Notes under the pieces: model-generated | The model's input: the letters and a program-made list of their open reading frames with translations, nothing else | Database searches by the model: none | Told to the model about the DNA's origin: nothing | Part shown: positions 15,323-34,796 of the stretch, piece by piece | How positions within the stretch are numbered: the stretch's first letter is position 1 | How the letters are laid out: every line of letters begins with the position of its first letter | NCBI GenBank assembly: GCA_001275005.1 | Contig: JWZX01002892.1 | Coordinates: 1-34,798, forward strand | Source: Chrysochromulina tobinii | Taxonomy: Eukaryota; Haptophyta; Prymnesiales; Chrysochromulinaceae | Reading direction: 5' to 3' | Length of the DNA stretch: 34,798 nucleotides | Program-made: the position numbers and the translations under genes

Positions 15323-15832
15323 TTTGATAGCGATCAGCGTAGGACCACCGAAGCAGAAGCTGGGATTGCGACGGGAGCAAAGCGCCCGCCGTCGCGTCGT
15401 CGGGCGTCGAATGGGTACTATGGTCTAGATACATGTACCGGTAGGAACCTGTGTCAGCGAACCGACCCCCCAAAGATTAACGTAAACCGACCGAACACCG
15501 TACACGCTTCGTATGCCTGGGGGGTTCGCCACGTGTACGCTGCCAGTACGTACCTTATACTTTCTAACAACGTAAACGCTAAACCGACCGGGAACCCACA
15601 TCCCGGCATCCGAACCGACGCCGAACCCCTTAACACTCTATCCGATGCACCTCTGCTGACCCCCAAACGCTGCCTCTCCGCTGGCGCGAAGTCCGTCTTC
15701 GCGACATATGCTCACTACGGCGCCCTCGCCCAGCGCGGCGGGCGCGGCGGAGTGGCTGTGGGAGTACCCCGAGCGACCCAGCGAGCACATCCGCGCACCC
15801 TCCCAGCCCGCGCCGCCAAGCAGCGAATCACG
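15323..15832. other. Intergenic region with AACCGACC motifs and a partial insert core
   Basis: This is the presumed promoter of the SKP1/LRR gene. AACCGACC or close variants recur at about 15459, 15485, 15591 and 15613. At 15709-15726 the 18-nt sequence TGCTCACTACGGCGCCCT is identical to part of the insert in intron 2 of the MFS gene. No gene is seen. Confidence 0.5.
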
Positions 15833-17798: not shown

Positions 17799-19879
17799 TC
17801 AGTCTTCCTCCGCACGAGCGGCGGCCTGGCCTGCGGCAACGAAGGCGAGTGCGCTGAGCGTGTACAGCACGCCCACCGTTGGGGCTAGCAGCTGCGGCAG
17901 CTCGTAACCTCCCGATTGCACGGCGAGCCCGATAGCGTACGGCGCAAAGTTGCCAACGAGCGTCAGGCACGAGAAGACGCCGGTGGTGAGGCCCTGCGTG
18001 CCAGCAGGTGCGGCGGCCTGGAGTGCCGTGATGGTGGGGCCGAACCAGCACTCGGCGAGCAGATACCTGATGAGGGAGGCAATCAAAGGGCATCAGGGGC
18101 ACGCAGAGGCCATCAGAGGTGTTATCATAGGTGTTATCAGAGGTGTTATCAGAGGTGTTATCAGAGGTTTCATCAGTGGCAATCCGATCTCGCCAGAGGC
18201 TTCCGATCCACGCACTCTATGAAGAGGCTCCCAAGAGAAAGCTCGAGAGTCGGCGCGTCGAGTGCGCCGAGCCAAAACGGGATGGCCAGGAGAGAGCCTG
18301 CCGCAGGCACCCAGTAGGAGGCGCGGCGGTCGAGCACCTGTAGGACAGGGCGCCGTAGTGAGCACTTGCAAGCAGCGGGCACCCAGTACGAGGCGCGGCG
18401 GTCGCGCACCGAGAGCTTGTCAGCGAGAAACCCCCCTCCAGTCGCCGAGATCGAGCCAGCGACGCCGTTGACCGAGGCCTTGATGAGGGCGAACTCGGTG
18501 CCAATCTCGGCGGGGAAGCGCGCGCGGTAAAAGGGTACCACCCACACGCCGATGCTGCAGCCCGCCGAGTGACAAAGCACCCGATGAGAGGGGCCATCAG
18601 ACGCAATCAGACGCAATCAAATGATGGGGACGTTGACGAACCTGAAGCCCGCCAAGAATCGAAGGGCGCTCGCGAGCAGCAGTAGAGCGACCACGGGCTC
18701 TGCCAGGAGCCGCTTGAGGTCGACGACCACGCTCTTGCTAGCTGCAGGGCGGCTGAGCTCCGCCGTAGCTGGCTTAATGAGCTCGTCCATCTCGCCCTCG
18801 CCGCCGCTCTCGGCCGACCGAGCGCCGTCCTGAGCGCCCTCCGCCCAAGAGAAGGATGCCTCGCGCCCAGTGACCTCGGTGACGACGCTGGCACTGTTAC
18901 CGTTGCTAGCTGCCTTCAATGAGTTCAATGAGTCCAAGGGCTCTGGCTCTGACGAACCTGACGAACTTGACGAGTCCAACGGCTCTGGCTGGGACGATAC
19001 AGTCGCGAGAGGGAGGGTGCGCATGGGCGCTGCGCCGGGCGCCTTGTCGAGCGTCGGCGCCATCGGCGGCAGCGTCAGCTGCACGGCGGCCGCGCTGGCG
19101 AGACCCAGCACACCAACGATCACGCACAACTGGCGCCAGCCTAAGGAAGCATCGAGAAGCACGGACAGGGCCGCTAGCCCGCCACCAAAATATAGGCCGG
19201 AGGCATAGAGCCCGTTGACGGACGCGAGGCGCTCCGGCGGATAGAGCCGGCGCAGGATCGCGTACGCCGTCGGATTGGCAAACGCCTGCCCGACGCCCGA
19301 CACCATACGCGCCGCGAGGACCTCATTGAAGCTGCCCGCTGCGCCCGTCAAGACTGTCGCACCTGTCCACAGCACTGACGTGCTCGTCAGCAAGTTGCGC
19401 GTGTCGGTGCGGTCCACGAGGCCACCCGCCACGAGCGAGGTGAGCGAGAAGAGCGCGGCAAAGCCAATCGACGCCAGTATGCCGTACTGCGCCTCATTGA
19501 AGCCGAGATCGACATTCATGAACTGGAAGGCAGCGTCGGCCGAGGGAGTTGCCTTGAAGTCCACGGTGTAAAAGATGAGCTGGCGCGCCCATTGATTCGT
19601 AGTGAAGAGCAGCAGCAATATTAGCACCGCCGCACCGCCGGGCCCGGCCGCCTCTGGCGGCTTTTCGTCCCCGTCGCGGTCTGGACCCTGCGGCAGCTTT
19701 GCGCCCTGGCCTGTGGACGTGTCGATCGCCTGCATTTCGAGAGTCTGGCGCCGCCGCGTCATTGGCGAGCTCATCATGGGAACCGTGCTCGTGCGGAAAG
19801 CAGCTGCGGGCGCGAACGATGTCAGGCCAGCAGCGCCCACGACCGCGAGCAACGCAAAACAAGCCATGAACGTGAACAC
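17799..19879 (-). CDS. Plastid-type major facilitator transporter (spinster-like)
   Basis: Minus-strand exons: 19879-18642, 18554-18410, 18337-18216 and 18066-17799, total 590 aa with consistent phases. The N-terminus is a signal peptide followed by TSFAPAAAFR, an ASAFAP-like plastid leader of secondary red-plastid algae. The transporter starts at about residue 85 (AVLILLLLFTTNQWARQLIF). MFS features include GGLVDRTDTRNLL after TM2/3, VSGVGQAFANPTAYAILRRLYPPE, and YLLAECWFGPTITALQ near the end. About 12 membrane spans are expected, with a long acidic/Ser loop (DSSSSSGSSEPEPLDSLNS) between halves. The substrate is unknown; spinster-type carriers move lipids or sugars. Intron 2 (18338-18409) is 72 nt, in frame, and half of it duplicates the next exon. 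The kept protein reads DKLS-VLDRRASYWVPA; if unspliced, 24 residues are added. Confidence 0.75.
18338..18371 (-). mobile_element. Short insert element, copy A (MFS intron 2)
   Basis: On the sense strand this 34-nt segment begins TTGCAAGTGCTCACTACG and ends TCCTACAG. It sits between two copies of a 38-nt exon sequence (18372-18409 in the intron, 18300-18337 in the exon; 34 of 38 identical). With the first copy it forms the 72-nt intron. Confidence 0.6.
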
Positions 19880-20305
19880 TGACTGGCTTCTTCATTATGA
19901 ATACACACAACACGTAAGCAGCACAGCCGTGAAAACAATACTATACAATACAGGCCAGGCCCCACATGAGACACATGCAGATGGCTTCTTCACGTTCATG
20001 GCAAGTAAATTTCAACAACCGAAACCCCGAGACGACAGATGCAGCAGGCGCACACAAACGTCTACTGTACGTCTGTACCCGGTACCGGTTCATAAACACC
20101 GGGGGGAGCCGGACAAACTCACGAAGCACAAAAACCGGTTCAAACCCCCCTCGGGTGAGCCGGACACGTGACACACGATAGACACACGAACCATAGAAAC
20201 AAACCGGTAAAAAGACACCGTGGGAGCCGGTACACCGGGTATGCGAGCTGCACGACGATCAAATGAAACGATCATCACAAACTTTGCGTTTCACGTTTGC
20301 GCACG
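19880..20305. promoter_or_regulatory. Divergent promoter of MFS and SAXO-like genes
   Basis: The 426-bp gap between two divergent starts holds repeated ACCGGT palindromes (about 20085, 20131, 20203) and GAGCCGGAC/GAGCCGGTAC repeats (about 20105, 20155, 20225). CACGTG occurs near 20165. No ORF is convincing. Confidence 0.35.
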
Positions 20306-21523
20306 ATGAGGGACTCGCGTGTCATTCAAGCAGTCGCAAGGCCTCTACCCGACCCGTACGTGTACAAGCAGTCGCGGAAGGGCGCCCCGTTCTTTGCAGC
20401 AGTCGGGTCGCGCCCTAGCTCCGCCGGCGTGTTGAAACCAAATGTCGCAAATCGTATCTTCGATCAGCCAATCGTTGCTGGCGCTGTCGACCGCCAAGCA
20501 GAGTGGTTGCTGCAGCAGCGCGAGGCGGTTATCAGCAAGCTTCGCCAACGTGCCTCTTCGGCAAAGCTACGCCAGGAGTCCATCGTGCACGCAGCTCACG
20601 CTCATCTATCGAGCTCCCCGGAGCCGGACGGCCCTCCTCAGCGTCCGAAATCAGCACACTCGGCATCAAGAAGGGCAGGTGTCGAGTGGATCGAAGCACC
20701 CGCTACCAACGTCGTCGCCGCCCCATCGAAGAAGCCGAGTAGGCCCTCAATGCGCTTTGAAACTACGTACAAATCTCACTATCCTGAGTTCAGAGGGTCT
20801 TCAGACTGGCTACGTCCTCCAAGGGTCAAGCCACCGAACAATCCACCGCCCTACCCGCTGGAAACCGACGAATCTATGGGCCGTACGACAAGCCAAGACT
20901 GCTTTCACGTGCCTCCAGTCGGATTTCCTGCGCGCGCGCCTGTCTGCCGACCAACCGAGGGTGAGCCGGTATGGTTTGAGCCCGCACAATCAAATCGCAC
21001 ACTGTGCTCAACCTACTGCGCACAGTACAAAGGATTCTTCCAAGTCCCGCAGCAGAAGCCTGTCGTATACCCAGTCAACCCGCCACCCTACATGTATGTC
21101 GGCCACGAGGAGGCGATGAGGCGGTCGACGAGTGTCGATTCCTTCCCCAGGCCACCTCGGAGCATGTTGCAGCGGCGAGAGCCGTTCGTTCCGCCAGTCA
21201 ATCCGCCACCCTATGAGCACGTTGGCCTTGAGCCGCCACTGTCGCGGACGACGAGTGCCGATGCCTTTCCCGAAGCTGGGAGATATGGGAGCATGTGCCG
21301 CAAGCGAGATCCAATTTTTCCACCTCAAAATCGCGCGCCCTACTCGAGCGCGGATGACTTGTACATGGACACGCCTCTTACGACCTATAAAGCTCAATTC
21401 CTTCATATGGGAGCGGACGTTTCAGCCGCAATTCAGGTTCAACAACCCGTCGCTGGCCGCACTCTGGTCGATCCCTTGCAGACCGCTGGTGGGGCAATCT
21501 TCAGCAACGACGACTACTATTGA
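20306..21523 (+). CDS. SAXO-like axonemal microtubule-associated protein
   Basis: Single exon, 405 aa from the ATG at 20306. The chain is Pro-, Ser- and aromatic-rich with no globular domain. It has recurring blocks: FETTYKSHYPEF, TLCSTYCAQYKGFF and TTYKAQFLHM (T-x-Y-K/C-x-x-F type), alternating with MGRTTSQDCF, MRRSTSVDSF and LSRTTSADAF after NPPPY segments. This resembles the Mn-type modules of SAXO/STOP proteins, which lie on or in axonemal microtubules. The periodicity supports a repetitive fit to the tubulin lattice. The assignment rests on motif spacing only. A second likely ciliary gene lies 0.8 kb away, so the two may be co-expressed in flagellated cells. Confidence 0.5.
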   Translation: MRDSRVIQAVARPLPDPYVYKQSRKGAPFFAAVGSRPSSAGVLKPNVANRIFDQPIVAGAVDRQAEWLLQQREAVISKLRQRASSAKLRQESIVHAAHAHLSSSPEPDGPPQRPKSAHSASRRAGVEWIEAPATNVVAAPSKKPSRPSMRFETTYKSHYPEFRGSSDWLRPPRVKPPNNPPPYPLETDESMGRTTSQDCFHVPPVGFPARAPVCRPTEGEPVWFEPAQSNRTLCSTYCAQYKGFFQVPQQKPVVYPVNPPPYMYVGHEEAMRRSTSVDSFPRPPRSMLQRREPFVPPVNPPPYEHVGLEPPLSRTTSADAFPEAGRYGSMCRKRDPIFPPQNRAPYSSADDLYMDTPLTTYKAQFLHMGADVSAAIQVQQPVAGRTLVDPLQTAGGAIFSNDDYY

Positions 21524-22329
21524 GGATCCGATCCGTATCATCGCAATGGCGAGAACACGCGTCCTCGTCCAGCAGCGGACCGCGCGGCGTGGAGCGGTAC
21601 AGTACGCGCTGCCCTCGATACTCATACACGATACAGCCTTTTTCTCGCACTTAATCCATGCACCTATCTCGCTCAACGTCGGGTCCGATCAAAACTAACA
21701 AAACCGAACGGTGTCCGCGCGAGGAACACGTGTTCCCGGTGTTGCCCGATTCTGTGTCAGGCGGGTCGCAATGTAGTCGCATATTAGACTAGATTGATGT
21801 ACGTTTGTCGATACATGTTACTGTGGTACGCGTATGGAATCGCGCGACAGCGGACCGACGGCGCGCGGACGGGGACGGCACATCACGCACAGTCGCACAC
21901 CAGGGCTCGCCGCCACGAGCGCCACACCGCGCGCCCGGCGACGAGGTGACGCGTCCTGCCACGTCGTACCGCGCAGCGCGCATGGGCATGCAGGACGGAC
22001 TGTGCTGCACGCGAACCAGCAACCACCGGGCACTGGCACCACTGCACCAATTCGTGCGCCCTTGATTCCTTCTCTGATTGCGCATTATTTTTGCGCCAGA
22101 ACCACCGCGGGTCCGCACGTCGACTGGCATGGGGCATGCTGGTCGGGCCGGCCGAGATGGCGACGCGCTCACCACTCGATGCACACAGCTGCCGCGCACA
22201 ACACGCAAGAACTCTCTCACTTCACTGGTGGATTGGCCTGCAAACTTCTCCAGACCACCACTGCATGCATCGACCGACCCAAGTGCTAATCCAGGCAAAG
22301 CAAGATCCAAGAAACGCGTGGCTCAGCTT
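21524..22329. other. Convergent intergenic region
   Basis: This lies between the SAXO-like stop and the CIMIP2-like stop. It is GC-rich with scattered GCGCGC. ORFs on both strands (for example 21789-22310) have no recognisable composition or domain. I see no gene, RNA or repeat of note. Confidence 0.4.
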
Positions 22330-23372
22330 TTACCTCTCCATCTCTGCGATGCGCCGCGACTGCTCGAATCCCATGCCAGCAGGGCGCTGCGGCCCACCGC
22401 GAGAGCCGCCGAGCTCGGGCTTTGCCTTGAGCAGCGCTTTGATCCCCATCGACCGTAGCTCCAGGATCTCGTTGGCTTCGTCAGCCTCGGCCTTCATGCG
22501 TGCGTACTCGGGGTCGACTGGGTACTTGCCGAAGTCGCCGGGCGTTTGCCCACCATAAAAGCGGCCGGCATCGTCGCGACCGTCCCACCCGCTCACAGCC
22601 GCCGGCGCGCTCTTCGGGTTGATGCCACCGCTGTTCTTCCAGTGGGAAGTGCCGTCTGCAGCAATGGGGTTCCGACAACACGCACAAAGTCAGGGGCTGG
22701 GGACTCTCAGACGAGCTCAGCGGGTTATCTTAGCGGGCAAGGCATCCGAGTTCGAATCTCGCCGTCCCCACAGTTCTTGTCAGCGTCGGCGAGGCCGCGG
22801 ATGTGTCCGGTGAAACCGACGACGGGCATCACGTACGGGTGCCCCGAGGTGTCAAGCGCTGACGTGGGCCGTTGGCGGGGTGGCGGTGCCGCGTTCGACC
22901 CAAGCACGTGGTGATGAGTCCCCTGTGGCCTGAAGCCCGTATACCCTGCGATTCCGGCGTACACGTTGGCGCAGGCAGGCTTATGGCGAGATTCAAAGTC
23001 TGTGTCGTTGTCCATAGCAGCGAGGGCGCCGGCAGCTACGAGGCCTTGCTTGGGAATGTGGACTGTGGTGCTCTCCTGGATGATTCCGCCGAAACGGCTC
23101 ACCACCGTCCTCAAGTTGGCCGTCTCAGTGTTTAGGACGCGTGCCGGAGGCATCTCAACCGGTGCTGCGAGCGTGGGCACGGCCACGGGGGGTCTGGCGA
23201 AGCCCATCTCGACGCGGCGGTGACTATCGAGCAAAGGCTTGGATGGAACATTGATTCGAACTCCTCGCTCGAGGGCCACCGTCCCAGGGTCGCGTTGCCT
23301 ATGCATGATGGCACCTCCCCCTGAAGAGTCCCAATGGCCATTGCGGAGCGAACTTAGTTTTCGTAGCAGCAC
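22330..23372 (-). CDS. CIMIP2/FAM166-like ciliary microtubule inner protein
   Basis: Two minus-strand exons, 23372-22772 and 22655-22330, with a 116-nt intron (GTGGGG...TGCAG), give 308 aa. The joined sequence reads ADADKNYGTSHWKNSGG across the junction. The protein has paired motifs GIAGYTGFRPQGTHHHVLG and PYVMPVVGFTGHIRG, the GYTG(H/F) modules of the DUF2475/FAM166 family, now CIMIP2, known as microtubule inner proteins of cilia. The C-terminus is charged and helical (YARMKAEADEANEILEL). The N-terminus is unrecognised, and a later Met could be the true start. The intron contains, on the opposite strand, a tRNA-like sequence. Confidence 0.6.
22699..22770 (+). pseudogene. tRNA-like relic inside an intron, antisense to it
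   Basis: The ends GGGGAC and GTCCCCA form six acceptor pairs. GAGCTCAGCGGG fits box A at 11 of 12 positions, and AGTTCGAATCT resembles box B with a T-arm of four pairs. The A-to-B spacing is about 8 nt too short and no good anticodon stem forms, so it is probably a decayed tRNA or tRNA-derived repeat. Its last base is 22770, one base inside the intron boundary at 22771. Confidence 0.35.
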
Positions 23373-23650
23373 ATCAACGAAACCGAAACGGTCGCTGCAC
23401 AGTTTGCATACACGCGCGATTACAGCAGAATTGAACTACACAGCCATGTCGCGTGGGTTTCAAAACACACACATGCCGCCGTCGCCCAAACCATCCTCAA
23501 CGCCGCCAGCGCGCGCGCATGCTCCGTGTCTCATATGGGGTCGTGTAAGGTGTGTGTATTTTGGGCGGGCAGTAACAGTGCCGTAACACCGGCTGTCGCG
23601 TCTGTCGTGTTAACGTTCACACAGGATTCAAAATTTGCGGTGCACTAGCC

Positions 23651-24956
23651 ATGCCTGTGCATGCGCGCTGCCTCGTGCTGAGCAACGGCATGGTCGGCGC
23701 CGAGAAGCAGGCTCTCGCTTTAGCTGAGGCGATCGGGCTGCCGTTTGAGGTGCGTAGAGTGAAACAGGTCATACCGGCACTCTCTCGGCTGCCGTCCTCC
23801 GTGCTAGCCTCCGCTACACATCTCCTGGGAAGCGTCGGCGTGAGTGGGATCGGTCCAATAGATGCTCCGTATCCGGCGCTGGCCATATCATGCGGCCGCG
23901 GGAGCATACCTGCGAGCATCGCGCTGCGCGACGCGGGCCGAGGAAGCACACTCACCGTGCACATTCAGCGGCCCGAGTGCAGTGCGAGCTGGTTCGACCT
24001 GGTGATTGTGCCGCGCCACGACTACCCGACGCTGGCACCGCCGAATGCAGTGCTGACCCGAGGATCGCTCCACAGCGTGACGCCCGAGCTGCTCGCTGCA
24101 GCGCGCAGGGAGTGGGAGCCCGTACTGAGGCCCTTCCCGTCACCGCGCCTCACGCTCCTCCTCGGAGGCACAGGTGAGATTGCCACTGATTGCCCCCAAT
24201 GATTGTGCTCTGATTGTGCTCTGATGGCTCCTGATCCTCCTTGGACGCACAGTGTCGCGTAGCTGGTGGCAGCGGCCGCTCGCACCCGAGCTCACCGAAG
24301 AGAGCGCGCGGGCCTTCGTGCACTCCGCACTCGGCGCCGTCCGCCGCTTGGCCGGCAGCCTGCTTGTAACCACCTCACGTCGCACCCCGGCGGCAGCACA
24401 CGCGGCGGTCGCGCTGGAGCTTAAGGCCGCCGCAGCTGCGGGCGTCCCCTGCCAGTTGTGGACTCCCGATGCGACGCCTAATCCGTTCCACGGACTGCTC
24501 GCATGCACGGACCAAGTGGCCGTTACCGCCGACTCGATCAACATGGTCACGGAGGCATGTGCCGCGGGTGAGCCGCCATCTCGCGTGCTCGACCACCCTG
24601 ATGGCCACCAAGAGAGCCCCTGATTGCCACTGAGTGCCACTGATTGGCCCTCCACTGAGTGCCCCTGATTGCGTCGCTCATTAGGTAAGCCCATCTACGT
24701 GTTGGACCCGTTAGCGTGCCGCCGCCGGTACGCGGTCTTCCACAGCCGCCTGCTTCAAGAGGGTCGCACGCGCCCGTGGCCGGCCGACGGTGTGCTCGAG
24801 CCTGCGACGCTGTGGAGGCGCAGTAGTGAGCACTCGCATGCCAACGGTGACCTCGAGCGTTCGACGTTGTGGACCGCCACCGACGAGCTGAGCGACACTG
24901 AGCGCGCGGCGGCGCGAGTGGCAGAGTTGCTGCGCGAGCGAGGAGTTTTGGTGTAA
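23651..24956 (+). CDS. ELM1-family protein (mitochondrial fission, DUF1022)
   Basis: Three exons: 23651-24173, 24253-24567 and 24685-24956, 369 aa. Family hallmarks are clear: LSNGMVGAEKQALALAEAIG at the N-terminus, PALAISCGRGSIPASIALR, HIQRPECSASWFDLVIVPRHDY, NAVLTRGSLHSVTPELL, then DQVAVTADSINMVTEACAAG and GKPIYVLDP. ELM1 was described in plants as needed for mitochondrial fission, recruiting dynamin-related protein. The fold resembles GT-B glycosyltransferases, and bacterial homologues are common. No targeting peptide is visible, as expected for an outer-surface protein. In exon 3 a 57-nt in-frame tandem duplication adds about 19 residues (VLEPATLWRRSSEHSHANG) that the family lacks as far as I can tell. 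Both introns are flanked by exon copies. Confidence 0.8.
24174..24252 (+). repeat. ELM1 intron 1 with duplicated exon end
   Basis: The upstream exon ends CTCCTCCTCGGAGGCACAG and the intron ends ATCCTCCTTGGACGCACAG. These are the same segment repeated before and inside the intron, flanking a TGATTG array. Confidence 0.7.
24568..24684 (+). repeat. ELM1 intron 2 with duplicated exon start
   Basis: The intron starts GTGAGCCGCCATCTCGCGTG and the next exon starts GTAAGCCCATCTACGTGT. The similarity continues to GCTCGACC versus GTTGGACC. The body is a GATTGCC/GAGTGCC array ending CGCTCATTAG. Confidence 0.7.
24790..24873 (+). repeat. Exonic tandem duplication around insert element copy C (ELM1)
   Basis: Direct repeats at 24790-24816 and 24847-24873 (22 of 27 identical) flank 30 nt at 24817-24846. 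That spacer contains AGTAGTGAGCACTCGCATGC, the reverse complement of the core found in copies A and B. The unit is 57 nt and in frame. No AG precedes the second copy, so it is probably translated rather than spliced. Confidence 0.6.
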
Positions 24957-25374
24957 GCGGGCGTGGAGCGACTCTACCCCTTAGTCGCCGTGCTGCAAGA
25001 GCAAGGAGTGATGGCTTTTGCGGTTGGTGGCACATCCCGAGGGGAGGCTGCGCTGCGTGCCGTGTGCCGGTGGGATGTGCTGATAGGCTGTCGGTATGGT
25101 CCGATCTTTCACGCCCTGCCCGGAGCCCGGGGTGCGCGGTACGGATAGATTAGCGAACGTAGCTCCCAGCACCCAACGCAAACCCAATGAGTTAATCAGA
25201 TCACACAAGGCATCCGCGACGGAGTGTAACTCAACTCACGAAGACATACAGGAGCGGGTTGCTGACTCAATGAACTCAGAAAGAGATCACACTGGAGTCT
25301 GGACACGCCTCGTGTGTCATGAGGAGACACAAAGGCTTCCAAAAGAGCATGATGAGGCGACGAGGACGTCCGCT
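24957..25374. other. Convergent intergenic region between ELM1 and FkbM genes
   Basis: No gene is supported. The plus-strand ORF reaching into 25375-25596 is antisense to the FkbM methyltransferase. The sequence is less GC-rich than the coding DNA and probably holds both 3' UTRs. Confidence 0.4.
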
Positions 25375-26328
25375 CTAGGAGTCGCAATTAAAAGTGTGGC
25401 CTCGGACTCCGCTGCAAACCCCTATCTTCCAGGGGCTGCGGGAAGCGTTGCCTTCCAACGTCCCTATCCATGGAAGTATCAAATCGCAGCCAAAATTGTG
25501 CTCAACGCATGGTGGCGTGTGCACAGGAACTTTGAAGCCGCACTCCGCAAAAAGCTGTTTGAGCTGTATTGGCGAACAGTCGGCACCCCGCAATAAGTGG
25601 CCATAAAATTCCACTTTGGCCACACCCACCCTGCCCTCTTGCAACCATCTTTTCATGCCACGCACAGTATGGCATTCATGTCCCTCCACGTCAATCTTCA
25701 AAACGTCCGCACGAAATGAGTCCGGCAGTATGTTATCCAGTGCGCGAACCGGCACATTCTTTTGGTACACCGTCGAGCTGTCCCTAGGGTTTTGCGTTGC
25801 GTTGGATTCTCTGAGAAACGCATGGCCACCATTATGTCGTTTGATTGCAAGTTTCATGGTGCTTGACGTGCTACTTGCGGCAAGTGGGTAGACAATAGCC
25901 CGGCCGGTCAACTCTGGATGCTCGCGAACGGCTTCCGAAAGTGTCGATGTCAAGTAGAAAAGGTTGGCAGGCGACGGCTCAAACGCAACTATTGATGCAT
26001 TCGCTAGCAGCATAGGGAGGGTGCATGCCCCAATATTGGCTCCGAGCTCCAAAAAGGATCGACTCGATCCTCGAGGAACCTTATTAAGCAAATGAAGCAG
26101 CGGACCACATTCAAACCAAGATCCAGCCCTCCGAAGCGAATCTGACATCAAATCGCTGCCCAGACCGTAGAGACACATGTGACCATATTTTGTATGTGTC
26201 CAATGGCATCTGTGGCCGGGCGGAGGTGGCAGGGCGGCATCACCCGCACGCCACGCTCTCCACGCCAAGCTGTCGCAAGGCACAGCTGTGGAGCCACAGC
26301 TTTCGTTGATCACAAGTTGCGCCAACAT
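25375..26328 (-). CDS. FkbM-family methyltransferase
   Basis: Single exon, 317 aa from the ATG at 26328. The frame is open to a TTG at 26370, which would add KLLPAIV and complete a hydrophobic N-terminal segment, so an upstream start or exon is possible. The AdoMet-binding motif I is FLELGANIGACTLPM (about 92-106), followed by the acidic strand end ASIVAFEPSPANLFYL. Later ADVLKIDVEGHECHTVRGM (about 207-225) is the IDVEGHE hallmark of the FkbM family, O-methyltransferases often acting on sugars or lipids. Multiple Cys and the hydrophobic N-terminus suggest a secretory-pathway or Golgi enzyme. The substrate cannot be read from sequence. Confidence 0.8.
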   Translation of the reverse strand: MLAQLVINESCGSTAVPCDSLAWRAWRAGDAALPPPPGHRCHWTHTKYGHMCLYGLGSDLMSDSLRRAGSWFECGPLLHLLNKVPRGSSRSFLELGANIGACTLPMLLANASIVAFEPSPANLFYLTSTLSEAVREHPELTGRAIVYPLAASSTSSTMKLAIKRHNGGHAFLRESNATQNPRDSSTVYQKNVPVRALDNILPDSFRADVLKIDVEGHECHTVRGMKRWLQEGRVGVAKVEFYGHLLRGADCSPIQLKQLFAECGFKVPVHTPPCVEHNFGCDLILPWIGTLEGNASRSPWKIGVCSGVRGHTFNCDS

Positions 26329-26803
26329 TACAATTGCAGGGAGAAGTTTGGTGCTGTGTCTATTCAACAAGTTTGGTCCAGACCAGCTCTGAGCGAAGCG
26401 CCCTAGTTTATTTCTGTACCGGTAACCCGGTTTCGGGTATGTCTCAAGGTATGTCTGTGTGATTTGCGTGTCAAGTCAAGACTCAAGAGTCAAGTCACTC
26501 ACTCATGTCAACTAGGCTTTACAATTAAACAACAGAGAGCAAAGAATGTGCTCCGGAACACCGGAAGCCAGCTATGGAAAACGGGAGAATGTTGAGAGGG
26601 CGCGGGGATCATATATAATGAGGCGCCACGGGAGTGGACTTGACTTGACTAATTGACTTGACTTGACTTGATCGCCTCTTGACTCGCGGGGCCGCCCTCT
26701 CTCAGCCCGCCCTCTCTCACCCCTCAAAGAACCCAAACGCACGCGACGCGTGACATCTCCACACTCGTCTCCTTCTTCACGAACACACACCGAGGTGCTC
26801 AGG
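26329..26803. promoter_or_regulatory. Divergent promoter with TTGAC/GTCAA arrays
   Basis: (TTGAC)n occupies 26637-26671 in direct orientation toward the plus-strand gene. GTCAAGTCAAGACTCAAG and related copies lie at about 26469-26515 in the opposite orientation, toward the FkbM gene. TATATAAT is at about 26611. The same pentamer array lies in the divergent promoter at 491-533. Confidence 0.45.
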
Positions 26804-28626
26804 ATGCCGCATCCCCCAGCTTCTGCGTCGAAAAACTGGGTAGATAAACTCAGCCCTGACGGCTCAGACGACTGGAGGCTTGGGCCGAGGCAAACTGGCG
26901 GAGGGGGCAAGAGCAAGGCGAAGGAAAAGAGCGCTAAGTTCGCGCCTCGTTCTGCGTCTCAGTTCCAATTGGCGCATCAAAGGCTCGCCGACCATCTTGC
27001 GTCGACGATCGACTTCCAGCCCGCCGGTCTGGTCTCTCCGGAGCGATGCCCGCGTCTGCAGCGATTGATACACACGTGCAAGGATCGGCAGCGCATGGAG
27101 CTTGGTCTACCCTCGGGCGACAAGAGGGACTGGACGGACTTTGAGATCGACCGCGCCACGGTCAGGATGGCCAAGGAGTGCACGGGCGTCTCCCCTTCTC
27201 CGGATGTCAACCTGTGGGAACTTGTGATGGAGTGCACGTGCATCAAGCCAATAAGTGACGAGATTTGCGGGCGAGAAGAGTATGTGGAGGCGCTTGTTGT
27301 TGTGAACGGCCTCAGGACGCTCACTGTCGGGCGCGCACTGCCCAAGAACGGCGACTTTCTGCATACGGGCTTCCTGAGCTTTTACGACGACGGATGCGTC
27401 AAGCATGCGTACGGTGACGACCCGGCTATTGGGTGTCAACAAGTCTCACAGATCAACGACGCGCAGGCGACGATCTACTTTGAGTTTGCGAAGGTGTACC
27501 GCAAGTACCTCGCGGTCGAGGATCAGATTGCGAAGCTGCTCGGCATGCACATGAACTTATACGCGCAGGCCGCCGATCAGCTCGAGTCACTGCGCTACAC
27601 GTTACTTTCGGTGCCCCAAATGCCCTCCCACTGATTGCCACGGATTGCCCTTGATTGCCTCTGATGGCCCTTGATTGCCTCCTTCATCAGGTGCCCAGAA
27701 TGCCCGCCCACTGCCGCGCGATCTTCGAACTGGTCAGCCGGCGGCTGCCGCACTTGTTCCGCGAGTGCGCCTTCTCCAAGTCGCAGAACCTGGAGAATCT
27801 CGCCATCATCGAGCCTCTCTACACGCTCGAGCTCGAGGTGAGATCGACGCTGGATGCATCTGAGTGCATCTGAGTGCTGCTGAGTGCAGCTGAGTGTGAT
27901 GTTTGAGCTCGAGGTGAGATTGTCGCCGCTGGTCGCCACGGATCGCCATTGCTGACCACCAATTACATCCCTCATCAGGCAATTGTCGCCATCAGTCCGG
28001 TGCAGGCCGCTCGAGCGGAGCGTGCCATTGCCGCAGGCAAGGGGCGTGCCGCCGCCGGGCTGTCGCAGTGCATGACCTCAGAACAAGCCTATGCGCTGCT
28101 CGATGCTGAGGACTCTGCACGGGCGTCCGAATCCCGCGCACTGCTGCCTCCACCTGCGATACCTCACGTGAGACGAAGCCGGGGAGATCGGAAGAGATCG
28201 GAGGAGATCAAGCGAGACCAAGCGAGACCGAGCGAGATTACGAGACCAATCGAGCTGCCCATCTCGCCTCCTGCTGCCGCCCCCGCCGACGCGCTGCCCT
28301 CACCACCATCCTCCTCCATAACCGCCGCCGACGCGCTGCCCTCACCTCCATCCTCCTCCATAGCCGCCGCCGACGCGCTGCCCTCACCACCAACCTCCTC
28401 CATAGCCGCCACCGACGCGCTGCCCTCACCTCCATCCTCCTCCATAGCCGCCGCCGAAGCGCTGCCCTCATCTCCATCCTCCTCCATAGCCGCCGCAGAC
28501 GCGCTGCCCTCACCTGCCGCGGCCGCCTCTGCAAGGGAAGAGTTTGGGCGGCTTGCAGAGGCAGTGACGGCGGGGATTGAGGACCTGGCCCTCATCAAGG
28601 GGTCATCATCGAGGGGCCTTCAGTGA
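26804..28626 (+). CDS. Conserved-looking protein of unknown function with Ser/Pro repeat tail
   Basis: Three exons: 26804-27610, 27691-27837 and 27979-28626, 533 aa, phase 0 throughout. The frame opens at a GTG at 26750; the first ATG is 26804. The body is globular and mixed: RLIHTCKDRQRMELGLP, FEIDRATVRMAKEC, a strand-rich segment (YVEALVVVNGLRTLTVGRAL, FLSFYDDGCVKHAYGDD), then long helices (IYFEFAKVYRKYLAVEDQI, RAIFELVSRRLPHLFREC). The C-terminus has about six 14-residue units of the type ADALPSPPSSSIAA. I recognise no family. 28168-28254 could be a further 87-nt in-frame intron (CAC|GTGAGA...TCGAG) made of GAGATCGG/GAGACCAAGC repeats. Confidence 0.55.
27611..27690 (+). repeat. Intron 1 of the unknown gene with duplicated exon start
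   Basis: The intron starts GTGCCCCAAATGCCCTCCCA and the next exon starts GTGCCCAGAATGCCCGCCCA. Both continue CTG. The body is GATTGCC/GATGGCC repeats ending CCTTCATCAG. Confidence 0.75.
27838..27978 (+). repeat. Intron 2 of the unknown gene with internal copy of its donor
   Basis: GAGCTCGAGGTGAGAT crosses the donor at 27838 and recurs inside the intron at about 27905, so a second GTGAGA donor exists. GAGTGCATCT repeats lie between, and the intron ends CCCTCATCAG. Confidence 0.65.
28288..28515 (+). repeat. 42-bp minisatellite encoding ADALPSPPSSSIAA
   Basis: About five and a half 42-bp units keep the frame in the last exon of the unknown gene and give a Ser/Pro/Ala tail. Confidence 0.85.
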
Positions 28627-29077
28627 TCGCCCCTGATCACCACTGATGGACCTTCAAGCTATCGAGGGGCCCTCATCAAGCCCCCCCCTAGGATTCCTAC
28701 CTTGGAGTGGCCAGAATGCCAAGGCTCCTACTGCATGCCCGCTATGGATAGAAAGCGAAGGGACGTTGGATGCTCTGTCGTGTGGACGTGGAACAGAAGG
28801 AACAACGAAGTGCGGCCAATTGAGTGCGGCGACGCGACGTCCGAGAGCGCGGACACAAGCGGGGACCGGGCCCCCTCACGTCGCCCGTCTCTCGAGTTTT
28901 CAGGTCTGCTATTATCATGGCTTCCTATTATACAAAAATAGTAGACGAGACGCCGCCGACGGCATGTCCATGACCATGTGCCGGTCGGCGAATGAAATTG
29001 GAAAATTCGACTTACATAGATCTAACGTATGAAAACTGCAACGCTGTGGGAACAACGGGTCTTGTTACAAACTGCAT
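28627..29077. other. Convergent intergenic region
   Basis: A short inverted duplication lies at the left end (ATCGAGGGGCC twice, with CTCATCAAGG and CTCATCAAGC). The rest shows no ORF of note. Both neighbouring genes end here. Confidence 0.4.
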
Positions 29078-32021
29078 TCAACAAGACTCCCAACTAGTCG
29101 AGAGCCACTCATGCCTCGCCGCGTCCTCCGCAGTGAGCCTCCTCTCGTAATCGACCGTCATCAGGCCGCGCACCATGCTCTTCGCCTCCGCGGAGATGTC
29201 ATCCCACCACGGTGAAGGGAAGCTGTACTCGCCGCCTAAGATATGCCGGTGCAGCACCGCCTCGTCGTCGGCACCCCACGGAGGGAAGGCGCACAACATC
29301 GTGAAGAGCGTCACGCCGAGCGCCCACATATCTGCGAGCCGGAGGGCACAATCAATGGTCCTCAAAGGCTAATGAATGCGAGCCGACGGACACAATCAAT
29401 GGTCCTCAAATGATAATCAGTGCGAGGCAACAGAAAGAGCGCGAGGGGAGAGGCTATCAATGGTACTCAGAGGTCATCCGGCGCAATCAGACGCAATCAG
29501 TCGCAATCAGTCATGCGCACCCGGCGTCGTTGACTCGAAGCCTCGGCCACTCAGCTGCTCTGGCGACACATATTTGGGTGTGCCGCACCAGCTCGAACCT
29601 CGCAGCACGTTCGGGCGCACGATCGCCGCGTACCCAAAGTCGATGAGCCGTATCGAACCCGCCTCGTTGACGAAGCAGACGTTCTCAGGCTTGATGTCGT
29701 TGTGAACGATCGAGCGCGCGTGGAGGTACCCGACGACGTCAAGCAGCTCCGCAAGGATCAGAGCAGCCTCATCCTCCGCGATGGCGCCGCCACGCTCGAT
29801 GAGGCTGTAGAGCTCGCCCCCTGCCGCGTACTCGAGGACGAGGCTGATCGTACCTGTGAACGAGCGACGCCACGCTGTGAACGAGCACATGCATGCAGAG
29901 GAGGTCAGGATCACGCTCCTCGTACCCGAGATAGGATCCGAGATCGTCTCATAGAGCTTCGCTATATATGGATGGTGGAGGCTGCGAAGCAAGGCCACCT
30001 CAGCCTCGACGGTGGGCAGTTGCGCATGCATCGTCACCTTCGCCACGTCGATGGTCTTAATGGCCACCTCGTCGGGGTAGCCGTTGGCCTTGGCGCACAG
30101 GTTGTGCGCACGGCGCACAATCGCGTAGCTGCCCACGCCAATCGTCTCAACGAAGCTATACCTGGTGAGGGAGAGGTACTCAAGAACGCAATCAACACGT
30201 AACCATCACGCCATCATCACGCAATCAACACGTTACCCTGCCAGCAAGTTGAGTGGCAGCTGAGGCGCGGCTTTGTGACGAAGCGCGGTGTCGGCCTCCT
30301 CGGGCTTGGCGCTTGCATGCACTCCCTTTTTGGACTCACGCTTTGCCGCGAGCACCGCCTTCTTGGCGGCCAGCCTATCGAGCGGAGCCGCCACCACAGC
30401 GGTGGAGGGCACGTGGGGCGCCGAGACGGGCACGTGAGGCGGTGTTGCCACTGGTGAGCTGCCCGCGCGCGCCTGTGGGGAAGAAGGGTGGCGCACCGTG
30501 GTGAGCGTGTGCATGCAAGGCAGAGGGGCGCATCTCGAGCTGCCCGCGCGCGCCTCCTTCTTGGCCGTCGCCATGGCACCCCGCCGCGCCGCGAGGATCT
30601 CCTTCTTGGAGCTCACCTGATGGAGGAGGCCATCGAGGCTCATCAGTGGTCATCAGTGGTTATCAGTGGTCATCAGATTCATCAGAGTCATCAGGCCTTC
30701 GAGGGTCATCAGTGGTCATCAGAGGTCATCATAGGCCATCGGAGGCCATCGGAGGCCATCGAGGGTCATCAGTGGCACTCAGGGTGGCACACAAGGTGGC
30801 AATCTCGTGCTTGGAGCTCACACTCGAGGTGGCAATCTCGTGCTTGGAGCTCACACTCGAGGTGTCAATCTCGTGCTCGGAGCTCACACTCGAGGTGGCA
30901 ATCTCGTGCTTGGAGCTCACACTCGAGGTCGTGCGCCAGCTCAAGCTACGCGAAGAGGACGAGCATACTTCCTCCATCAACGGCACAGGCAGTGGGCTGC
31001 GATTCATACCCCATCCGTCGTCGGACGTGAGTGCGCTCACGGCGCTCACGGCGCCGCGGCCACCGCCGTCGTCGCTGTCGCCGCCGTCATCGCGCGCGCG
31101 CGCCGGAGCCTCTGCGTGCGCGGAAGTCGCCGACGGTGATGGCCACAGCCGGCGCCGCTCGAGGACAGCGTCCAACCCCGCGGTCGGCTGGGCGCCGGAG
31201 ACGTCGTCGGCCAGCGCGCCGTGGAGGGCGACGGCGCGCCGCGCATGCATCATGAACGTCTCGAGAAGCTCGAGCGCGCCACCGCCGCGCGCCGCCACCG
31301 CCGCGAGTGGCAGCGCCATCAGCCCTGCTTGCAGCGTCGCTGCGGCGTTCGCTTCGAGCCGGAAGAGACAGAGTGCATCCTCGACGATCTCGACGCGCAG
31401 CGCCTGCAGCGCGCCATTCGTGGAGCAACCGAGGCTCGCGCACTCGAGCGCGACGGCCGTGAGCCCTTGCAGTCGCGGCAACTCAGCAGCCAGCTCGCGC
31501 ACGGTGCGGCTCGCCCACGCACGGCCAGCGTGGCCGTCGGCGTCGCGGAGCGTTCCGACGCCACTCCACTGGCAGAGCGCGCGCATGAAACCAGCGCACT
31601 CGCTCACGTACTCGCCCTGTGCGTGCCGGCCCTGCGGCTCGCAGCACACCGCAGCGAGCTCGCGCACCGCTTGGGAGAGCGACGCGACGTGCCCTGCACT
31701 CGCGACGCGGCGGAGCACGAGCAACGCCTTGGCTGCGACCGTCGCCGAGGCCGACGAGCGGCACGCCTGCAGCCGCTTGGTGAGCTCCGCATCCACCTGC
31801 GCCGCCGTCTTCTCCTCGCCCGCGAGCCGCACGATCGTGAGCACGTGCTTCTCCTTTGGTGGCAGCCAGTCGTCGGTCGTCGCCTCGAAGAGCGCCGTCT
31901 TGCACTCGTCTGTTTGTTGCGTTCGGCGGACGGACGATGCCCGCCCCTCTGTCGGCAGACGCACTGATGGCTGTCGCGCTGGCTTGCTGGCGGCACAGCC
32001 GCAGCCACGCAGCCGCAGCAT
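29078..32021 (-). CDS. ANTH-domain / serine-threonine protein kinase fusion
   Basis: Minus-strand exons: 32021-30921, 30616-30237, 30161-29926, 29853-29521 and 29331-29078; phases agree, 767 aa. The N-terminal ANTH domain has ATTDDWLPPKEKHVLTIV, matching the phosphoinositide-binding pattern A-T-x6-P-K-x-K-H of AP180/CALM. It continues with AAKALLVLRRVASAG and helical repeats to about residue 270. An acidic/Ser linker and Lys/Ala-rich segments follow. The kinase starts at YSFVETIGVGSYAIVRRA. It has VAIK, EAEVALLRSLHHPYI, a catalytic loop IVHNDIKPEN (Asn replaces the Arg of HRD), IDFGYA, KYVSPEQL and DMWALGVTLFTML. ANTH proteins act in clathrin coats and CAMK-like kinases phosphorylate proteins, so coat regulation is a plausible role. 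Separate genes are possible, but phase and splice junctions favour one chain. Confidence 0.65.
29854..29925 (-). repeat. 72-nt in-frame intron of the kinase gene with an insert-like core (copy D)
   Basis: The sense strand starts GTACGAGGAGC and the next exon starts GTACGATCAGC. The remainder begins CTGCATGCATGTGCTCGTTC, similar to the insert core, and has CTCGTTCACAG twice, the second ending at the splice site. Removal joins ISG to TISLVLEY, as kinases require. Confidence 0.6.
30473..30518 (-). mobile_element. Short insert element, copy E (kinase gene exon 2)
   Basis: The sense strand reads TTGCATGCACACGCTCACCA and ends CTTCCCCACAG. The 17-nt repeat GAGCTGCCCGCGCGCGC (plus strand) lies at 30456-30472 and 30537-30553, exactly 81 nt apart. 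The 81-nt unit has no stop in frame. It could be retained in the protein or removed as a GC-AG intron. Confidence 0.5.
30617..30920 (-). repeat. Kinase gene intron 1: four 33-bp copies of the next exon's start plus a TGAT array
   Basis: Four tandem 33-bp units at 30801-30932 each contain GTGAGCTCCAAGCACGAGAT on the sense strand. The next exon begins GTGAGCTCCAAGAAGGAGAT. Each unit offers a GTGAGC donor. The rest is a TGATGACC array ending CCTCCATCAG. Confidence 0.75.
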
Positions 32022-32921
32022 GCCCGTGTCGGGGTCCGACCACCGAGAGCGTGCAAACTAGGGGACAAGATTTGGGTACCAAGTGCCGTTAATCGGCAAA
32101 AGGTAGGGGGAAGTGGCGCAGGTGGCGCAACTATTGAATCAAAAGCGGGTGATTTATGCTGCCGTGACCCAGCGGGCAGCGGCCTTCCCCTAGAGTAACC
32201 CGATTTGGGAACCTCTTATGAGTTCTTTTTAGCCACAGGACACGGTTTTACCCAAGGGGGTCAGGGAGGCGGAGGGATGTTAATCTTCTGGATTTGCACA
32301 AAATCGTGGAACTCATAGTTACCCTGATTTCAAAGTAACTGAGATACTGAGTGATTTACAGTACATAGTCCCAACGGGGGGGGTAGACGTACTAAGACGA
32401 CTGAGGAGGGATTATTGTCTGGATATTGCGCACAAGATTCCACGGCACGCGATCCGGGCCTCAACCCCGCGTCGGACATCGCCCTCTGTTTTCACGTCGC
32501 GTCAAACCGTGCAGATTTGTACCCTGAGAAGTGAGATATTAATCTCAAATCTGACGGTGTTCACTTCACAGTGCGCACACTCTCGTGACCGCCCGTCACT
32601 GTCAGTTGTTCACTCACATCAGTGCATGCATCAGTGAGTCAAACTCACTGACACACGCTCCGCACTCGCACTCACACACACACATGCTGTGCAACACTCG
32701 CACACACACACACGCTGTGTGCACCTCCTTACGCACCCACTACGCTGCCTCCCCGTCTCAAAGCGAATCGGCTCCGCTGCCCTCGGTCAAGACAAGTAAT
32801 GAGTACTCGCTCGTGTTCCATCGATGCACTTATTCGATGCGAAACACAACTCCCCCGCAAGTCCAGATGGATACAGTCACATCATGCTCGATCGGCTCAC
32901 CAAAGCCCGCTTTGGCTTTTC
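32022..32921. other. Intergenic region upstream of the ANTH-kinase gene
   Basis: No gene is seen. 32660-32725 is a CA microsatellite with CACACGCTGTGTG hairpins. The rest is comparatively AT-rich with short G runs (GGGGGGGG near 32375). It presumably holds the ANTH-kinase promoter and the 3' UTR of the JmjC-like gene. Confidence 0.4.
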
Positions 32922-34796
32922 TCAGAGCGTGCCGCACGCATGCTGCTGGCAGTGCGGGATGTCATGGATGGCATACCCGCCCCGATCGCGCTTGCAGTCT
33001 CTGGCAGGCTGCTCCATATCCTTGCAGCAGCCCTTGTAGGTGATGCCGCCGACGCCCGCGGAGAAGTCGTCCATGCCACACGTCTCATGCCACCAATAAT
33101 TGGGGACCCAGATGACCTCACCCGGCTGCTGCACACACTCGAGGGTACTCGTCCGCCGACTGGCCTGATGTGGCCTGCACTGGTCGGCCGGATCGCGCAC
33201 ATGGCGTGCCATCATCTCGGGCGGTTCGGTCTCGCTGTGATGATATCGGAGCAGCAGGAAGCAGCGCGAGGCAATCAGCATGCAATGAAGGAGGCAATCA
33301 GCAAGGGGGAAGCAGCGCGATGAGTGGCATCATCAGAGGCGATGAGTGGCGACCGGATGCAATCAGTGTCCAATCACCTGTCCGGATGCAATCAGTGTCC
33401 AATCGCCAATCACCTGTCCGGATGCAGAAGCCAGCGCTTCCGTCCGACGACCGCCGCGAACCACGACGCCGGGTGATTCTCAGGCGGCACGCCCACGCCG
33501 AGCCCCGAACCAATCCCCATTTGGAAGGTGCTCATGGGCTGGAAGTAGGGGGGCACGTGATACGAGCCCTTGGCAATCTGGGGCGAGGGAAGCAATGAGG
33601 AGGGCAATTAGGACGGCAATTAGGGAAGCAATGAGGAGGGCAATTAGGACGGCAATTAGGGAAGCAATGAGGAGGGCAATTAGGACGGCAATTAGGGAAG
33701 CAATGAGGAGGGCCAACATGACACAAACATACGATGCCACGATCTGGAAGTCATGAGGCAATTATGACGCAATCATATGATGCCACGATCTGGGCAATCA
33801 TCACGAGGCAATCTCGATGCAATCTCGATGCAATCTGAGGCCATCACGAGGCCATCAAGAGGTCATCAAGAGGCAATCACGAGGCAATCACCTGCTCGAA
33901 TAGGAAGGGAGAGTACGGCCGCCATGGGTCCGAATAGCATGCATGAGCAGGGTAGACGGCGTGCCCCATGTGGTACTTTCCCTCCCAAGCAAGCAACTCG
34001 CCCAGGCTCTTATTGTACGTGTCGTGCAGTTGGAAAGGGCTGTGGAAATGCTCTTGCAGGATCACGTCGCGGGTCCATCCTTGCAGATTGGTCCAATTAT
34101 TGGTGAGGCCGTCGATGATGAAAGGCCACTCAGCCGTCTCGAGCAGCTCGCGTGTCACCTGCCACAGTGCGACGCGCTGCAGTGAGCACTTGCATGCAAG
34201 GCCACTCAGCCTCCTTGAGCAGCTCGCGCGTCGCCTGCCATCAGCGGCAATTACTATAGAACGAGGCCATCAAAGGCCATCAGAGGCAATCAGTGGCCTC
34301 TAGTCGCAGCCACCTCGGTCTTCCGAGCGTCCATTCGCCACAGGTCGCATCCCTTCGTCTTGTACGCCCCCGGCAGCTTGAAGCGCCCGGTCTTGGGAGA
34401 CCCTTCCATCCCAGCTCCCACGTGCGAGGGATCAATGTACCTGTGGGTATCGGGCTCGTCACGGGCTCGTCAGTGTTTCGTCAGGGTTCGTCACGAGCTC
34501 GTCAGTGTTTCGTCAGGGTTCGCCCTCGTGCGAGGGATGAAGGCACCGTTGGTGGGCAGGAGGGTTCGGCAGTGTTTCGTCAGGGTTCGTCACGAGTTCG
34601 TCAGTGTTTCGTCAGGGTTCGCCCTTCGAATGTACCGTTCGTGCTCGGGAATGTGGGACCACGCGTGCATCTCGGCAGGGACGTTGATGCCGGCTGCGAT
34701 GGCCTCGCTCAGGGTCATCATCCCTGGAGGGGGGCTGGATCTCGTGCTCGTGCCGCCCTGGGCGCCCATGCCCCCCATGCCCCCCCTTCCCCCCAT
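32922..34796 (-). CDS. JmjC/cupin-like protein, 5' end at window edge
   Basis: Minus-strand exons: 34796-34636, 34440-34314, 34158-33892, 33577-33414 and 33234-32922, 343 aa so far with agreeing phases. The first Met lies two bases from the edge, so the true start may be outside. Motifs follow the JMJD-type order: WPFIIDGLTNNWTNL (opening of the fold), HVPPYFQPMSTFQMGIGSGLG, NHPASWFAAVVGRKRWLLHP, and ECVQQPGEVIWVPNYWWHET near the C-terminus. Related enzymes are Fe(II)/2-oxoglutarate hydroxylases acting on proteins or tRNA. At the first metal site I read PPENHP where relatives usually have a His, so activity is uncertain. Four introns hold long arrays and duplicated exon pieces. Confidence 0.65.
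33235..33413 (-). repeat. JmjC-like gene intron 4 with tandem copies of its donor region
   Basis: TGCATCCGGACAGGTGATTGG spans the donor (21 nt; core CCGGACAGGTGATTGG) and recurs inside the intron about 40 nt on. A third partial copy follows. The intron thus carries copies of the upstream exon end together with its splice site. Confidence 0.65.
33590..33715 (-). repeat. 36-bp minisatellite in JmjC-like gene intron 3
   Basis: About three and a half units, each with GCAATGAGGAGGGCAATTAG and GACGGCAATTAGGGAA on the plus strand, lie next to the 3' splice site. The units are contiguous with no spacers. Confidence 0.85.
34159..34234 (-). mobile_element. Short insert element, copy B, with exon-derived direct repeat (JmjC intron 2)
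   Basis: 34159-34199 is the 41-nt insert; its sense strand starts TTGCATGCAAGTGCTCACTG and ends CTGTGGCAG at the splice site. 34200-34234 is a copy (30 of 35 identical) of the next exon's start at 34124-34158. That copy is preceded by its own TGGCAG. Confidence 0.65.
34441..34635 (-). repeat. JmjC-like gene intron 1: CCTGACGAAACACTGACGA array
   Basis: Five or so units of roughly 30 nt (GAACCCTGACGAAACACTG) fill the intron. Its start GTACATTCG resembles the next exon's start GTACATTGA. Splicing joins EHER to YIDPSH. Confidence 0.65.

Follow-up and report, generated by a model that had tools for sequence, protein, structure and literature searches.

The bulk origin of introns is an old open question, and transposon-like introners are the main present answer to it. 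Introners are reported from 175 genomes, with repeats of 3-9 base pairs (bp) in some families, and a legend of the same paper describes a Chrysochromulina family with 4-bp target-site duplications and its own 5' splice site (Gozashti et al. 2022, PMC9860276). Amoebophrya introners have direct repeats of 3-5 nucleotides (nt) (PMC7789003), candidate introners occur in mirusviruses (PMC12768974), and a survey of 213 introns gives repeats of 4-30 bp near splice sites (PMC11782384). Other models do not start from an element: Daphnia neointrons, with direct repeats of 4-12 bp, are ascribed to staggered double-strand breaks (PMC4202315), tandem duplication of AGGT is a further model of intron origin (PMC4974935), telomere repeats are inserted at mammalian breaks with target-site duplications among the outcomes (PMC2246262), and filler and duplications are found together in repair-mediated duplication (PMC2671141), in each case according to the cited portion of the source. 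Here we analyse a stretch of 34,798 nt from the haptophyte Chrysochromulina tobinii (contig JWZX01002892.1, assembly GCA_001275005.1), hereafter the window, in which a core sequence of about 25 nt recurs between long duplicated segments of exon in several genes.

The system resembles introners in its haptophyte host, in having many highly similar predicted introns at unrelated positions of one genome, and in drawing one splice site from the insert and the other possibly from the duplicated target (PMC9860276). Given that family, the claim of an earlier sequence-only reading of the window, that no element like this one was described, is too strong. In contrast to introners with duplications of 3-9 bp, or 4 bp in the Chrysochromulina family, the duplications here are about 15-50 nt long and make up to half of the intron. 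As in the Daphnia neointrons, direct repeats stand at opposite intron ends, staggered breaks are invoked and there are secondary insertions (PMC4202315). The Daphnia repeats are shorter, and no recurrent filler family such as the present one is noted in the cited portion of that report. A search of the open-access literature, supplements excluded, gave no account of haptophyte exons in which long duplications enclose a recurrent ultra-short filler.

A short core between duplicated exon segments

In the direction of splicing the core reads GCATGCAAGTGCTCACYACGGCGCC, with a branch-point-like CTCAC inside it; the sequence-only reading had given it on the opposite strand, as GTGAGCAC. Its recurrence in several genes of the window was confirmed, as GTGAGCACTTGCATGCAAG has four matches within three mismatches (copy A at 18358, C at 24826, E at 30501 and B at 34182) against 0.00 expected from 100 shuffles. 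The looser pattern TGAGCACNNGCATGC, with three mismatches, gave 23 matches against 22.8 expected, which is chance level, and is the only pattern that catches copy D (29882). The genome-wide search that the same reading had proposed covered the window's own assembly (53.15 Mb, 2,253 contigs), for which all match counts are lower bounds. It holds at least 2,021 core matches within three mismatches, against 7 for the reversed pattern, at least 1,235 matches to a 24-mer (control, 0) and at least 1,972 to a degenerate pattern (control, 24). The core, with steady ends, is present in many unrelated genes and contigs, and its copies are clustered, with 167 within-locus pairs on the same strand and 12 on opposite strands. 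The family is real, abundant and introner-like, and its insertion signature is unusual. A 23-mer query has no match in GTDB contigs and a 19-mer none in IMG/VR. Viral carriage was considered and rejected: the sole IMG/VR match (L061:4290-4554) is probably a chimeric assembly, with phage-like open reading frames (ORFs), judged by eye, and the core in a short eukaryote-like tail with CCACCACAG. For one protein of the window, the only relative assigned to a named organism is from Haptolina ericina, a prymnesiophyte haptophyte (47% identical over 71%).

Three types of copy were distinguished. The order in type S is exon, exon copy 1 starting with GT, core, pyrimidine tract, CCCCACAG and exon copy 2, and the sequence added ahead of the core varies in length. 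Type L carries GTACGTTGATTGCCACTGATGACCTGCCTT ahead of the core and has no tract; its 5' end is exact (GT), it has no AG tail, and its 3' splice site comes from an exon copy ending in CAG. In having its own 5' splice site it resembles the Chrysochromulina family in the legend of PMC9860276. The minimal type is the bare core between exon copies, with neither splice end. Among 148 distinct copies, 62 belong to type S (four of them bearing the L extension as well) and 23 bear the L extension, 11 of these with a scored duplication. A duplication was scored in a further 28 (minimal, in arrays or shifted), and five have too little flank. Tandem units of exon copy plus insert, about 48-90 nt long, were also seen (L012, L024, L045, L048 and L051).

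Direct similarity between the two flanks exceeds 95% of the null in 96 of 141 copies and 99% of the null in 46; at the latter level inverted repeats score in 0/141, and direct repeats with the left flank shifted by 150 nt in 4/138. The repeats of coding sequence beside the copies, which the sequence-only reading had described, extend beyond the window: in 72 of the 98 copies with tract and YAG, a second copy of the 16 nt that follow the AG stands upstream of the core (four mismatches or fewer), against 2.8% in a null for which exon starts were drawn from other copies. The real data were allowed up to three AGs per copy and the null one, a small favourable bias; 45 further copies had no tract and YAG downstream. 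Sampling was not random: two patterns contributed the loci that match them exactly, a third contributed loci from the first contigs, and each member of a tandem array was counted by itself. Copy 1 starts with GT in 56 of the 72 and with GC in eight, and is preceded by G in 62. The duplications vary from about 15 to 50 nt and are identical in 26/72, many copies having diverged.

The same duplication surrounds other fillers. Minisatellite introns, made of TGATTGCC-type units followed by a fixed AG that adjoins copy 2, have the exon start repeated upstream within three mismatches in 13 of 30 testable cases (null, 0.7%), whereas a deeper exon stretch used as control is repeated in 1/30; nine of the 13 duplications start with GT. 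An exon repeat at the opposite intron end, the mark of staggered-break neointrons, is present with both core and minisatellite. Introns of TGATTGCC or TGATGACC units were seen on contig C608 (L043-L046) and at 30600-30790 of the window, and a ClpX gene has several, some nested.

Telomere repeats form a third filler. At L008:60-330 exon copies of about 18 nt enclose a telomere-like block; the block falls in a predicted intron, and its CTAAC could act there as a branch point. This locus was picked by eye from a broad scan for direct repeats, which gave 149 'other' pairs, many of them in repetitive coding sequence among the matches listed, and which is a lead only. Some contigs of the genome begin with CCCTAA repeats. 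Twelve interstitial CCCTAA blocks (L102-L113) were taken from the first 100 of 192 matches, with contig ends and starts and longer arrays excluded (C881, C882, C978, C1042 and C1556). Flank duplication exceeds 95% of the null in nine of them, although the one at L111 is distant from its block and probably fortuitous. Six exceed the null maximum, with duplications of 25, 50, 33, 29, 16 and 33 nt, several of which directly adjoin the block. Mammalian interstitial telomeric sequences likewise combine internal telomere repeats with target-site duplications (PMC2246262, in the portion cited); here, in contrast, several blocks have direct duplications of 11-50 nt and at least one, L008, is in a predicted intron. 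The duplication is independent of the identity of the filler, whether core, minisatellite or telomere repeat, and is not peculiar to the core element.

Predicted introns, filled sites and empty sites

In the predicted intron the exon copy provides the 5' splice site, and the insert provides the branch point and the AG. The intron would be 57-93 nt long in 67 of the 72 copies with a repeated exon start, a set that includes window copy C, itself no intron. Reading frames were scored with the codon usage of the window genes (3,426 codons) in 62 of the 72 (GT or GC start, <110 nt). With flanks of 90 nt, the best frames of the two sides agree in 42/62 when the intron is excised and in 19/62 when it is not, and across flanks of 60-150 nt in 35-42 and 18-24, respectively. 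Where the length is not divisible by three (39 cases), agreement is 26 against 3 at 90 nt and 20 against 9 at 60 nt. Displacing the 5' splice site (1 or 2 nt) lowers agreement to 8 and 11 of 62, and in 49/62 the sense strand has the higher coding score.

Protein comparisons point the same way in several genes. The ClpX gene on C608 (L043-L046) has seven copies, and its hand-spliced protein aligns with a solved ClpX without gaps at two core-intron junctions, KAHLDR/FVIGQDEAKRALSV and TADFV/RHGLEPEFIGRIPV (the slash marks the junction). Domains are near-complete across the spliced junction in the L003 phosphatase (DSPc, 1-132 of 133) and in the L001 JmjC gene (1-114 of 114), and excision of copy D raises the Pkinase score from 123.1 to 131.8 bits. 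The genome holds a U2 small nuclear RNA with a sequence that includes GTAGTA. Splicing itself we infer from the sequence. Frame and domain comparisons support the proposal that the insert makes new introns, which remain predicted ones, though not for every copy, since copy C is none. Copy E, formerly taken to leave the frame open in an exon, is instead a predicted GC-AG intron.

Eleven joined empty sites were searched in the host genome, and at each of the eleven source loci the match is split into two overlapping pieces, as in a filled site. One empty site, of the kind expected in relatives, was found in the same genome: on C2204, a paralog of the L003 gene has a match that spans the junction (84% over 69 nt) and reads HCQHGVSRSATLVIAYIMWKRG unbroken, without an intron. 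At the same site a metagenome ORF (P0006, 61%) runs straight through; it could be DNA or transcript. At the copy A site, in an MFS gene, the insert is read in frame in a metagenome ORF that is 94% identical (P0124); other versions of it are carried by P0129 and P0131, one relative's version apparently with two cores. Two more distant ORFs, P0125 (68%) and P0126 (62%), go straight through, but introns nearby are missing from them as well, and they may be transcripts. P0132, with a poor alignment to the left of the junction, was left uncounted. One genome thus contains both the filled gene and its empty paralog, and close metagenome relatives carry insert variants, so that the process could be tested in living algae and in natural populations.

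How the insertions may arise

The reading we lean towards, without strong confidence, is that the core is an ultra-short, introner-like half-intron that serves as a recurrent filler in long-stagger break repair. Exons would break with long staggered ends of about 15-50 nt, fill-in would copy the overhang, and a short filler (the core family, a TGATTGCC-type minisatellite or telomere repeats) would be sealed between the copies, sometimes at microhomology of 2-6 nt. The filler would supply a branch point (CTCAC, CTGAT or CTAAC), to which the commonest core form would add the pyrimidine tract and CAG. Where the duplicated segment starts with GT right after an AG, the upstream exon copy and the filler would be spliced out and the exon restored, so that the insertion would be tolerated. 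Existing introns may template further copies. All three core types can be explained by such staggered ends, their filling-in and the capture of a filler, with a break and a copying step that we infer.

The sequence-only reading had left the choice between an introner-like element and a templated insertion at break repair. Break repair fits best, and the exon duplication is not a trait of the element only, being seen around minisatellite and telomere blocks too. One signature around unrelated fillers implicates the insertion process rather than the element, and the process, with its long duplication, is separable from the sequence that is inserted. The inner junctions are consistent with some microhomology: the duplication reaches the element in 17 of the 62 type S copies and, with four in arrays set aside post hoc, microhomology of at least 2 nt is present in 10 of 13, the chance of which is about 0.09 on the right side only and near 0.16, by reasoning, on both sides.

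Several observations weigh against break repair with a captured core. Its weakest point is copy number: a single sequence present thousands of times, always with steady ends, is more than random filler capture would give. No duplication was scored in 30 of the 148 copies, and unexplained bases stand at 45/62 inner junctions, so that microhomology is not general. Copies within a locus are not significantly more alike than others (210/2,000 shuffles), so that local templating is weak. Local multiplication was rejected as an explanation: a left extension is shared by 25 of 197 within-locus pairs against 311 of 9,905 others, but the former figure includes arrays, and the similarity of elements within a locus is not significant. 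No domain reaches the cut-off across the junction in eight of ten spliced segments (L076, L011 twice, L074, L041, L038, L080 and L054), one weak TniB match touching the junction in the second L011 segment, and excision of copy A brings no gain (MFS_1, 93.0 bits unspliced and 91.8 spliced).

A bolder form of the break-repair reading, which we offer tentatively and would not yet bet on, is the mass production of introns without a transposon. Long-stagger repair in this haptophyte lineage would duplicate 15-50 nt of exon around any short filler, and a 25-nt filler with a branch point would be a hitchhiking half-intron that reached about 2,000 copies because the exon copy lends each capture a 5' splice site with which it can be spliced out. 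Minisatellites and telomere repeats would turn into introns likewise. Such a mechanism is possibly more general, and may show how introns arise in large numbers.

The main rival is an RNA route, which we regard as unlikely but the most serious of the alternatives. An excised intron RNA, or a fragment of one, would be the template for target-primed reverse transcription at a nick in an exon, by an enzyme resembling those of LINE or Penelope elements or telomerase. The product would end in a fixed AG, vary at its 5' end and be flanked by a target duplication that is long and of variable length. Type S and minisatellite introns do have a fixed AG adjoining copy 2, the extra sequence ahead of the core does vary in length, and the inner-end microhomology also suits this route. 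Telomere repeats are RNA-templated, which again speaks for it. The target-primed pattern of fixed 3' end, variable 5' end and variable duplication nevertheless matches type S and neither type L, with its exact 5' GT end and no AG tail, nor the minimal copies without either splice end.

A non-autonomous DNA transposon, that is, a very short introner mobilized by an unusual transposase that leaves target duplications of 15-50 nt, seems to us somewhat less probable again. It would explain a core and ends that are steady across many genes, and introners of this general kind are known (PMC9860276, in the portion cited), but the duplication length varies widely, and the unrelated minisatellite and telomere blocks carry like duplications. 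Terminal inverted repeats were not seen when the ends (GCATGC... and ...CCCCACAG) were compared by reading only, no dedicated search having been made.

Plain tandem duplication of AGGT exon segments, which in the Rogers model duplicates a GT-starting exon segment and leaves the protein unchanged (PMC4974935, in the portion cited) and would here spread as units with the core as a by-product, is very improbable, as is assembly error: units of exon copy plus insert exist (for example L012, L024, L048 and L051) and G precedes the start of copy 1 in most cases, but GT and AG do not both come from duplicated exon, since the type S AG, branch point and tract belong to inserted foreign sequence, the common core in unrelated genes and contigs already contradicts it, most duplications are no longer identical, and the insert is also found in related metagenome ORFs.

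Copies within the window

The copies are listed in Table 1. The duplications that the sequence-only reading had placed around A, B, C and E are all there, but their lengths, given as 38, 35, 27 and 17 nt, measure 36, 43, 30 and 19 nt. The duplicated stretch of copy B includes the CAG of the upstream intron. Copy C is antisense to the ELM1 gene and forms a 57-nt in-frame insert.

Table 1. Coordinates of the core copies and related features in the window
Feature	Position	Strand	Description
Copy A, MFS gene	18338..18409	-	Predicted 72-nt GT-AG intron; exon copy 1 18374-18409, insert 18338-18373, core 18358-18373
Copy A, exon copy 2	18302..18337	-	Would stay in the messenger RNA under the model; duplication 36 nt at 92%
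Copy B, JmjC gene	34122..34240	-	Core 34182-34197; exon copies 34198-34240 and 34122-34164, 43 nt at 88%
Copy C, ELM1 gene	24787..24873	+	Minimal insert 24817-24841; exon copies 24787-24816 and 24844-24873, 30 nt at 83%
Copy D, kinase gene	29854..29925	-	Predicted 72-nt GT-AG intron, diverged core; read from sequence
Copy E, downstream of kinase exon	30473..30553	-	Predicted 81-nt GC-AG intron; core 30501-30516; duplication 19 nt, exact
Truncated piece	15709..15726	+	18-nt exact piece of the insert; shares TGCTCACTACGGCGCCCT with copy A, without the GCATGCAAG half

The piece at 15709-15726 is probably a truncated copy or a remnant of the insert. Some copies lie in an open frame (L024, L045, L056 and 24817-24841 of the window) and may stay in the protein, for example reading ACMQVLTTA.

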